NCBI GenBank assembly: GCA_030272155.1
Contig: CP126206.1
Span: 3,585,001-3,649,000 of the forward strand
Reading direction: 5' to 3'
Source of the DNA: Tetradesmus obliquus
Lineage: Eukaryota > Chlorophyta > Chlorophyceae > Sphaeropleales > Scenedesmaceae
Length of the DNA stretch: 64,000 bases
The translations under genes and the position numbers were made by a program. Position 1 is the first letter of the stretch. Each line of letters opens with the position of its first letter. Below, piece by piece: positions 1-64,000 of this stretch. The notes beneath the pieces were generated by a model that saw only the letters and a list, made by a program, of their open reading frames with translations, was not told where the DNA came from and ran no database searches.

Positions 1-249
1 TGCAGCAACACAAGCACGCCAGCAAGCCTGCGCCTAGAAGGTATGGTGTGTAACTTTGTGCCGGATGCGGTTTAGGTTTGTGCATAAGGCTTGAAGCCGC
101 TTTTGTTGAGTAACCTCCTAAGATGGAAGCAAAGTGTGCATAAGAGCTGTGGCCATGGCCTCCGAGCGCATCCTGCAGCAACACAGGGACACCTGCTGCA
201 CTGCGGCTGGAAGGTGCGGTGCGAGTAGGGCGTGTACATGTTTGTCAAC

Positions 250-790
250 GGGTTTATGGGGCTTGGCGTCCCCGCTTAGCTGCGTGCTGCTGCCCGCTGT
301 TGCGCTGCGGGCAGCGTCACAGCGCACTTTGCTGTATGTGACCCCACCAAATCATACTGTTGGCAGCAGCAACCACCTTCAGATTGATGACGTGGCTGCG
401 TGCTGCCGCCCGCTGTTGTGCTGCAGGCAGCGTCAAGGCGCACTTCGCTGTGTTTGATCAAAGCAAGCCTGCATACATTTGGAAGCAACAAGGCCACTTC
501 AAATGATGATGTGGCTGCGTGCTGCCGCCCTCTTTGCGCCGCAGGCAGCATCAAGGCTCGCTTTGCTGTATGTGACCTGCCAAACTATACTGTTGGCAGC
601 AGCAACCACTTTCAGATCAATGACGTGGCTGCGTGCTGTTCTCTGCAGGCAGCATCAAGGCGCACTTTGCCGCCTTTGATCCAAGCAAGCTTACATAATT
701 TTGGCAGCAGCAGCCGCTTACCTTTAACTGACCTGGCTGCATACTTTTCGCCATTTTGCATCGCAGGCAGCATCAAGGCGCACTTTGCTG
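250..790 (+). repeat. Decoy array: acceptor-side copies of exon 767-1008
   Basis: About five tandem units of roughly 115 bp, each with a GCAG acceptor followed by the start of the exon (GCAGCATCAAGGCGCACTTT and variants). The last unit continues into the real exon. Earlier units drift and lack a donor, as expected for unselected intron sequence. A single copy of the exon's 3' end plus its donor lies downstream at about 1078-1140. Confidence 0.75.
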
Positions 791-62800: not shown

Positions 62801-63886
62801 CGCGCTGCTAGGTCGCCCACACTTCCTGGTCACACTCGTTTCATGACATGTTATATGTTGTCACCCTTTGTCACCCACCTGTGTCCATGAGGCTCAATAG
62901 CCCAAACATGCGCGCTGCCAGGTTGCCCACACTTTCTGGTCACACTTGTTACCAACATGTCATTTTGTCACTCGTTGTCACCCACCTGTGTCCAAGAGGC
63001 TCAATAGCCCAAATATGCGCGCTGCTAGGTCGCCCACACTTTCTGGTCACACTTGTTACTAACATGTCATTTTGTCACCCACCTGTGTCCATGAGGCTCA
63101 GTAGCCCGAACACGCGCGCTGCTAGGTCCCCGTCAATGCTCTCTTGACTCTCCGCACTGCTGCTGCTGCTGCTAAGCCTGCGGAGACAACGAACACGTAT
63201 GGCAGCAGCAGCAGCAGCAGCAGCGTCAGCGTGCACGTCTAGGTTGAGACCGCTGGAATGCCAGCAACAATTGCAGCTGTGATGTGTGGTAGCCTAGATT
63301 GGAACGCCACACGCTGAAGCAGGGGCACAGAGCTTACAACTAGTATTTCTGCAGCACAATGTGCAGCGCACATGTCGCGGATGACGCTGTGCAAAACCAC
63401 AATCAGCAGACGAAAACCGCAAAAGCAGTCCAATCACCTGCCGCGAATCACGCTGCCGACTATGGACACCATCCAGGCCAGCTGCCCTTCCAGCACAGCC
63501 AGCTGGCCCAATAAAACAATTACAGTAAAACCTCGAAGTAACGACACTTGAAGTAACGACTTTCGCATAATAACGACACGTCAGGCTGTCCCCAAAGTGC
63601 CCGAAGTGCCGCAAAACTGTCGCAAAGTAAGGACAAACACATAGTACAGTAAAGGACACGACAGAAGCCAAAACTCCACCAAAAAACACAAACCCGAGGC
63701 AGCCAAACCTGCCGCATCATCGCGACGTGCACATCAGAATACTAGGTTCAGCAGATGGATAGCTCAAAAGCAAAATCACCTGCCGCGAATGACGCTGCCG
63801 ACTATTGACACCATCCAGGCCAGCTGCCCCTCCAGCACAGCCAGCTGCTGCTTGGCGGCGGCGTCAAGGCCTGTCATTGTCGTGGC
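53867..63886 (-). CDS. XPO7: Exportin-7 (RanBP16-type importin-beta family), C-terminal half
   Basis: Fourteen minus-strand exons are in the window: 63886-63780, 63177-63083, 62269-62169, 60642-60484, 59979-59767, 58766-58633, 58132-57940, 57271-57170, 56819-56680, 56209-56095, 55817-55692, 55039-54896, 54473-54352 and 53924-53867. They give about 602 in-frame residues; the N-terminal half lies beyond the right edge. The order of conserved blocks matches animal exportin-7: GQLAWMVSIVGSVIRGR, FFQNFRKVYIGEQV, LLKLEAVHFMLGHHTS, VGLFRDLRGIA, SQRLTFDSSSPNGILLFREV, SGNYVNFGVFELYGD, SIPLADIMSYKKVAKAYFSL, NQWSLSRPMLSLILINEA and RDKFTQNL near the end. Exportin-7 is a Ran-dependent nuclear transport receptor built of HEAT repeats. 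Nearly every exon has decoy partial copies, so the half gene occupies 10 kb. It is convergent with PP2C. Confidence 0.93.
54040..54820 (-). repeat. Decoy copies of exportin-7 exons near the 3' end
   Basis: Donor-side copies of the penultimate in-window coding exon 54473-54352 occur at about 54232-54280 and 54045-54070 (AGGTTGCTGCCCACATC on the plus strand). Donor-side copies of exon 55039-54896 occur at about 54620-54690 and 54760-54815 (CCGCCTCGTTGATGAGTA). Confidence 0.85.
55160..56625 (-). repeat. Decoy copies around four exportin-7 exons (54.9-56.8 kb)
   Basis: On the plus-strand reading: an acceptor-side copy of exon 55039-54896 at 55184-55238; donor-side copies of exon 55817-55692 at 55447-55470 and 55540-55615; a donor-side copy of exon 56209-56095 at 55930-55980; donor-side copies of exon 56819-56680 at about 56435-56482 and 56540-56610. 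Each donor-side copy keeps its GTGAGT, GTGGGT or related donor. Confidence 0.85.
56860..58570 (-). repeat. Decoy copies around exportin-7 exons at 56.8-58.8 kb
   Basis: An acceptor-side copy of exon 56819-56680 lies at 56880-56945. Two donor-side copies of exon 58132-57940 lie at about 57625-57720 and 57780-57880, each still reading FDSSSPNGILLF on the minus strand. An acceptor-side copy of the same exon is at 58197-58290. Donor-side copies of exon 58766-58633 are at about 58328-58390 and 58488-58570. Confidence 0.87.
58995..59670 (-). repeat. ~190-bp decoy array from exportin-7 exon 59979-59767
   Basis: Four donor-side copies (near 59008, 59205, 59392 and 59578) hold the exon's last ~85 nt and donor (minus strand encodes LARLLFMEDAPSRFKGFMAP). 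Their spacing of about 185-197 bp is longer than in most arrays. Acceptor-side copies of the same exon lie at about 60075-60135 and 60200-60260. Confidence 0.87.
60643..61775 (-). repeat. Nine-copy decoy array with (CTG)n linkers before exportin-7 exon 60642-60484
   Basis: Nine extra copies of the acceptor plus the first ~86 nt of the exon (encoding VMQSSNVYSKLGERLGLADH) precede the real one. They are joined by triplet runs (CAG on the plus strand, CTG on the coding strand) of roughly 6 to 21 repeats. Copies differ by only a few bases. In the real exon the text continues from CTCATGCTGCAGAAG; in the copies it continues CTCATGCTGCTGCTG, so each junction sits in a CTG. A donor-side copy of this exon lies at 60345-60415. 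Confidence 0.95.
62024..63080 (-). repeat. Decoy copies around exportin-7 exons 62269-62169 and 63177-63083
   Basis: A donor-side copy of exon 62269-62169 is at 62026-62085; acceptor-side fragments are at about 62340-62372 and 62450-62482, next to CAG runs. Four donor-side copies of exon 63177-63083 lie at about 62640, 62775, 62885 and 62990 (GAGGCTCAATAGCCC...CACCTGTGTCCA on the plus strand), spaced about 110 bp, with intervening ACTT(T/C)CTGGTCACACTTGTT. Confidence 0.87.
63437..63510 (-). repeat. Donor-side copy of exportin-7 exon 63886-63780
   Basis: It matches the last ~65 nt of the exon and its donor (plus strand CACCTGCCGCGAAT, ACCATCCAGGCCAGCTGCCC). It lies in the intron, separated from the real exon by the transposon-like segment. 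Confidence 0.9.
63523..63720. mobile_element. DNA-transposon terminus-like segment (pogo/Tigger-type end)
   Basis: TACAGTAAAACCTCGAAGTA followed by ACGACACTTGAAGTAACGAC and ATAATAACGACACG resembles the ends of pogo/Tigger (Tc1-mariner superfamily) elements, which start CAGT next to a TA target and carry repeated GTAACGAC subrepeats. The opposite end and a transposase are not visible. A second CAGTAAAGGACACG in direct orientation lies at about 63650. It is probably a solo end or truncated non-autonomous copy in an exportin-7 intron. Confidence 0.4.
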
Positions 63887-64000
63887 CTGTAACATGTTAC
63901 ATAACAGTTGTTTTTTTGGCAGCAGTGGAGTCAGCAGCAGTGACAGCAGGTGTTTGAGTGTACAGCAGCAGTACATATGCGTGTCTCTGATACTGTGCTT

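Follow-up and report, generated by a model that had tools for sequence, protein, structure and literature searches.

The window analysed here is a stretch of 64,000 nucleotides of Tetradesmus obliquus DNA, bases 3585001–3649000 of contig 16 in a genome of 104,662,953 bases and 17 contigs with a GC content of 0.556. Four of its genes were modelled, namely an exportin-7-like, a malic enzyme, an HVA22/REEP-like, and a glutamate-receptor-like gene, by inspecting reading frames and then placing the splice sites by hand. In the exportin-7-like and malic enzyme models, all modelled junctions are of the GT-AG type and the joined frame is open; the models of the other two genes are partial. The pattern, which the initial annotation had claimed for seven genes, was checked on these four. 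Pfam matches were obtained to TPR_XPO7 (1.9e-50), Malic_M (2.2e-81), and TB2_DP1_HVA22 (9.6e-20), the glutamate-receptor-like genes were named by eye only, and a protein-phosphatase-2C (PP2C) gene is known in the window from its reading frames and a Pfam match alone. When the third copy of the exon start is used to join the last two malic enzyme exons, the product aligns unbroken to solved mitochondrial malic enzymes. This alignment continues across the last modelled junction and thereby identifies the third copy, the downstream one, as the working exon start. A search of the PDB with pieces of the exportin gave no match, and neither did the Rfam and tRNA scans of the window. Two glutamate-receptor-like genes lie about 10 kb apart on the minus strand (24875–29100 and 34609–37450), and their exons are 77–91% identical. 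For T. obliquus, 7.8 introns per gene and a mean intron length of 462 bp have been reported (PMC5966456).

Table 1. Modelled genes and exons with half-exon copies in the window (positions are those of the window).
Feature	Position	Strand	Remarks
HVA22/REEP-like gene	5586..8737	+	partial model
HVA22/REEP-like exon r2	6818-6949	+	four upstream and five downstream half copies
HVA22/REEP-like exon r5	from 8594	+	seven upstream half copies
Glutamate-receptor-like gene 1, exon g5 (24875-24972)	24875..25460	-	four upstream acceptor-half copies, 122-bp steps
Glutamate-receptor-like paralogue 2, g5-equivalent exon	34609..34836	-	one acceptor-half copy, also 122 bp
Malic enzyme gene	40229..45500	+	8 modelled exons; 15 half-exon copies, 8/15 trusted boundaries
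Exon m0 (40229-40346)	40229..40843	+	two downstream donor-half copies (ends 40595, 40843), flanking intron largely unalignable
Exon m4 (42650-42810)	42650..43312	+	three downstream donor-half copies (ends 42989, 43122, 43312)
Exon m7 (from 45273)	44867..45500	+	two upstream acceptor-half copies, 128 bases (starts 45070, 44867)
Exportin-7-like gene	53873..63847	-	14 modelled exons; 33 half-exon copies, 17/26 trusted boundaries
Exon x67 (57940-58132)	57628..58283	-	one upstream acceptor-half copy (boundary 58283), two downstream donor-half copies (57784, 57628)
Exon x4 (59767-59979)	59206..59979	-	three downstream copies of exon end and donor (donors near 59581, 59390, 59206)
Exon x3 (60484-60642)	60484..61788	-	nine upstream copies (acceptor and first ~85 bases), CTG runs between
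Exon x1 (63083-63177)	62629..63177	-	four downstream donor-half copies

When the 45 exon bases beside each of 50 trusted boundaries of the four modelled genes were used as probes and searched within 2.2 kb, 69 half-exon copies were found at 30/50 boundaries (acceptors 14/25, donors 16/25); BLAST alone placed copies at 28/50. The HVA22/REEP-like gene contributed 17 of them and the glutamate-receptor-like gene 4, the others being divided between the two long genes (Table 1). Every copy spans one junction, splice site included, AG or GT is retained in 61/69, and it is always the innermost copy that continues into the complete exon. The initial annotation had proposed, from the letters alone, that acceptor copies lie upstream of their exon and donor copies downstream, and this rule held for 37/37 and 32/32 copies, respectively. 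As local direct copies that carry a splice site and exon sequence on one side of it, they resemble tandem duplications crossing an intron–exon boundary. At least one copy accompanies 11/14 exons of the exportin gene, 6/8 of the malic enzyme gene, 3/3 of the HVA22/REEP-like gene, and 1/3 of the glutamate-receptor-like gene; with 21/28 exons in total, the earlier wording "nearly every exon" has to be softened to most exons. The step between copies (median 136 bp, interquartile range 120–152, range 97–342) is somewhat longer than the period of 75–200 bp first given. A copy number of one to nine fits our findings, as does the occurrence of the pattern in unrelated genes on both strands, the exportin-7-like and glutamate-receptor-like genes lying on the minus strand, and the malic enzyme and HVA22/REEP-like genes on the plus strand.

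Near the inner ends of the copies, a complementary site was present in 7/37 acceptor-type (GT) and 9/31 donor-type (AG) copies, against random expectations of 0.34 and 0.42. The absence of any excess of complementary splice sites at these 37 acceptor-type and 31 donor-type ends supports the earlier description of a unit that straddles one boundary, and rules out that the copies are complete micro-exons. Whole-exon duplication and mutually exclusive exons do not fit either, as the copies stop inside the exon and have no partner site; the single whole-length match, the donor copy of exon x0, is such only since the 5' end of x0 is unmodelled. Probes taken from the intron side recovered 13 copies versus 67 with exon-side probes, simple-repeat probes being skipped. 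The intron part of the unit could be aligned at 80% or more in 24/69 copies, was intermediate in 17, and was unalignable in 28 (unrelated sequence scores 0.54 on the scale used). The junction homology of the tandem units was examined and was not informative.

Several local features accompany these arrays. The 120-bp array before r5 (7764–8637) has a 360-bp higher-order repeat, and the exon parts of some of its units differ more than the intron parts. Between the glutamate-receptor-like paralogues, the intron part of g5 is 92% identical versus 78% for the exon half. A perfect tandem duplication of 95 bp, with two identical copies and presumably very recent, lies at 52820–53009, and about 6.4 units of 103 bp, 96% alike, occupy 33354–34016 between gene models. 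CTG/CAG runs occur throughout the window, often just before acceptors, with some of them within array units and at the inner ends of copies (x3, m4).

The copies go along with longer introns. In the exportin and malic enzyme genes, 17/20 introns contain copies, and intron length rises with copy number (Spearman 0.87, slope 119 bp per copy, intercept 335, 20 introns), which bears out the intron growth claimed at the outset; the slope was still 119 after the intron with 10 copies was dropped. Copy zones occupy 5846/8211 intron bases in the exportin gene and 2711/4098 in the malic enzyme gene. Outside these zones, local duplicates make up 23% and 7% of intron bases, respectively, and 71% and 54% of exon bases lie within a local duplicate. 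Enrichment at exon boundaries, which the initial annotation had named as a test of its claim, came out differently in two analyses. In a circular-shift test on uncollapsed genes there was no boundary excess (26/45 covered, null 25.5 ± 3.1); as most of the intron sequence is made up of copies, this null is a weak one. When non-overlapping local pairs (at least 80% identity, at least 50 bp) were counted in the two long genes, 33/33 contained exon or half-exon sequence (at least 10 bases) and 0 were intron-only, a result that may mark either formation or mere recognisability, because neutral intron duplicates fade faster.

The pattern was also sought in 25 further 10-kb regions, of which 20 were hand-placed over the 17 contigs and 5 were drawn at random. 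Local duplicates occurred in 23/25 of them (118 independent pairs; the window has 68), in line with the claim of a process that extends beyond one locus. Arrays with a period of at least 40 cover 18% of the window versus a mean of 5.5% in the first 20 regions, 12/20 of which contain any, so the window is richer than average. Among the 105 pairs from the 25 regions with at least four mismatches, the three-base periodicity of mismatches was 0.510 versus 0.469 ± 0.008 (0/500 shuffles). A mismatch-blind test took in only pairs with a single open frame, which need not be coding; in its 11 pairs the mismatches were spread as 53/54/56 over the codon positions. Nine pairs were displayed, chosen by eye as coding-looking and hence giving no frequency estimate: seven obey the rule at splice boundaries (judged by eye, a C2 domain, a LUC7-like protein, a glutaminyl-tRNA-synthetase-like protein, a kinase, a bZIP protein, and two unnamed proteins), one does so at the end of a coding sequence, and one is ambiguous. 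At L010:2057-2463, the coding end of an amine-oxidase-like gene, together with its stop codon, is copied past the gene end, which extends the rule to gene ends. In the copy of the C2-domain exon (L005:8917-9090), the codons for Ser-Asp-Pro-Phe differ at no fewer than 7 bases with the residues unchanged, beside at least 24 identical bases; this copy is a mosaic of old and fresh sequence.

The splice sites of the copies are as good as those in use. Copies that kept AG or GT beside unrelated introns scored 7.5 as acceptors and 9.2 as donors, compared with 8.3 and 8.6 for the real sites, and with -2.2 and -3.1 for other intronic AG and GT; the strong decoy sites of the initial annotation were thus confirmed. 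The share of pyrimidines at -20 to -7 was 0.60 in 12 acceptor copies with unrelated introns, 0.66 in real acceptors, and 0.49 at other YAG (p 0.003). The reading frame suggests that splicing uses the innermost sites, and splicing by exon definition is plausible, because it is always the innermost copy that is joined to the complete exon. A report on Scenedesmus acutus describes intron retention and exon skipping in one gene (PMC12899622) and has no bearing on the copies.

The differences between the copies and the working exon edges have the character of coding sequence. Mismatches fell as 40/32/153 on codon positions 1/2/3, and pN/pS between real edge and copy was 0.16 (bootstrap 0.11–0.21, 29 families), the counts taking in 63/69 copies and 29/30 families, as the remainder offered fewer than 8 codons free of gaps. 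Taking a single copy from each family gave 0.132, versus 0.474 (0.334–0.668) in a simulation of neutral copies, in which 0/150 runs were as low. The coding-like divergence that would mark displaced allelic exon ends, the class proposed below, is therefore found here, at a pN/pS of 0.13–0.16. The level of synonymous difference did not follow the adjoining intron, pS being 0.186 beside unalignable, 0.202 beside intermediate, and 0.192 beside at least 80% identical intron parts, which indicates that exon halves and intron parts have separate histories. At the extremes, the donor copy of m0 at 249 bp agrees with the working edge at all 46 exon bases and has an unrelated adjoining intron, and the donor copy of r2 at 140 bp has 8 mismatches in 61 exon bases beside an intron that is 98% identical. 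Coding-like divergence that does not track intron divergence means that the copies carry the history of functional exon ends. Freshly made, drifting duplicates conflict with the codon bias, the decoupled intron divergence, and the strong sites, and the earlier view, in which the present exon gave rise to copies that are no more than decoys, is not supported.

Copy–copy pN/pS was 0.30 (0.20–0.46, 15 families), and copy–copy pN (0.053) was nearly double that between real edge and copy (0.031) at similar pS (0.174 versus 0.200), as expected if each copy decayed independently. The pN/pS was 0.12 for the nearest copies and 0.20 for farther ones, a difference to which no significance is attached, and there was no clear trend in constraint along the exon half. 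Changes specific to single copies of multi-copy families were distributed as 19/16/30 over the codon positions (4/3/3 in the nine-copy x3 array). Some copies, such as those of x4, contain stops or frameshifts, indels occur in 16/69 alignments, and AG or GT is lost in 8/69 copies, being kept in 22/28 beside unalignable introns and in 39/41 elsewhere. With lost dinucleotides, stops, indels, and only weakly biased copy-specific changes, the copies look like formerly functional ends that are now decaying, and their mainly protein-neutral differences hint that they are displaced older versions of the working edge. A paralogue as the source of the copies is unlikely: the exportin query matched this locus only, among the best candidates listed of at least 36 matches, and the other malic enzyme loci are at most 73% identical.

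What is observed is that short local duplications leave a second exon edge with its splice site, of which the copy joined to the exon works and the other sits in the intron. Our main reading, to which we give a probability of roughly 0.4, is that many copies come from repair templated on a diverged allele, by which a new edge would be installed and the old one stranded in the intron. A break would fall in or near an exon, and its repair would copy from the homologous but diverged allele, with pairing beginning in exons because the introns of the two alleles no longer match. Synthesis would then run outward through the exon edge and its splice site into the intron of the other allele, and the new end would be joined to the broken end, so that the exon would take in the new edge. 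The former edge would remain in the intron with a splice site that is still good; the intron would lengthen by one unit, and the stranded edge would subsequently decay. Splicing would pass over the outer sites, since the shortest exon is the one bounded by the innermost acceptor and donor, and products that damage the exon would be purged by selection, giving the strict direction rule. Copying from the sister chromatid may account for the arrays with still-matching intron parts (24/69), in several cases followed by exchange of the exon part only.

Allele-templated repair would leave half-exons on the intron side, with sites of full strength and synonymous differences of the allelic type; their intron parts would be unrelated, their inner ends arbitrary, and the step between them narrow. 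T. obliquus has been described as diploid and extensively heterozygous, with one homozygous chromosome and a possibly hybrid origin (Biondi et al. 2024, as cited in PMC12636532). The allelic source is what we infer from the pattern of differences, and several observations stand against it. For alleles within a single species, a pS of about 0.19 is high; the 24/69 copies whose intron parts are at least 80% identical, with a pS of 0.19, need an additional exon-only exchange; and the mismatch-blind test elsewhere gave no codon signal. The wider interpretation, in which exon-edge replacement in a diploid, possibly hybrid, genome has turned introns into a layered record of exon ends and splice sites once in use, we hold a little more tentatively than the repair itself.

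An unlikely origin would be random local tandem duplication followed by survivorship, in which boundary-straddling units are tolerated because splicing can restore the mRNA, exon-internal and whole-exon units are purged, and extra copies drift neutrally. This would account for the direction rule and for the absence of whole-exon copies, and both the even spread of changes in the x3 array and the several arrays that are plain tandem amplifications with matching intron parts agree with it. However, the pN/pS of 0.132, where 0.474 is expected, goes against such drift for the older copies, pS is unrelated to intron divergence, and none of the 33 pairs in the two long genes is intron-only, although the neutral fading of old intron pairs could contribute to this last figure. 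To maintenance of the copies we give similarly low odds: they might take part in some transcripts, or act as reserve ends for recombination to exchange into the exon, their coding sequence and sites being selected. The low copy–copy pN/pS of 0.30 and the good splice sites could alternatively reflect such selection on the copies, and the fitted constraint on them (about 0.25) and the full-strength sites beside unrelated introns point the same way. Yet a maintained copy would not be expected to lose its AG or GT, to carry the stops, frameshifts, and indels noted above, to lack a partner site at its inner end, or to show copy-specific changes with only a mild third-position bias. That the copies are an artefact of assembly or polishing is very improbable. 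Tandem arrays are error-prone in assemblies, but local pairs recur in 23/25 other regions, the copies show divergence and stop at exon edges whose sites are intact, and the 122-bp step is common to the glutamate-receptor-like paralogue. Moreover, the reference list of PMC12636532 contains a T. obliquus assembly titled gapless and phased, probably of this same genome.

Duplications of this kind touch on two open questions, namely by what route introns become longer and why strong false sites are tolerated in splicing. Since full-score copies stand beside working sites, a single genome provides numerous natural experiments on exon definition. Should the stranded edges be displaced alleles, past exchange between diverged haplotypes would also be recorded in the introns, as the allele-templated reading would have it, and half-exon arrays may in any case mislead gene annotation in T. 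obliquus. Short tandem duplications in plant genomes have been attributed to break repair, known as patch-repair. These duplications are not known to be tied to exon edges or to a diverged-allele template, unlike what is proposed here for T. obliquus.

In the limited collection of literature searched, no title or opening of an abstract describes a genome-wide pattern of boundary-spanning half-exon copies. The initial annotation knew no described equivalent on such a scale, and the scale was not met in the searches; as a single event, however, boundary-crossing tandem duplication has been described in the RdRp gene of potato (PMC4974935). The gain of introns through duplicated AGGT segments, as reviewed in PMC3443670, resembles the present case in that a tandem duplication supplies splice sites and lengthens non-coding sequence with the protein unchanged; there, however, an exonic segment becomes a new intron, whereas in T. 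obliquus existing introns grow and the copies span existing boundaries. The potato case is closer, as a tandem duplication crossing an intron–exon boundary made an intron with splice signals from the parental structure; according to that report, it was one event, and the new intron has its donor inside the upstream exon copy (PMC4974935). In T. obliquus, by contrast, there are 69 copies in four genes, with no excess of donors at their inner ends and with coding-like divergence. Judged by the literature searched, the scale of boundary-crossing duplication appears to be new, and the coding-like divergence of the copies goes beyond what the initial annotation described.
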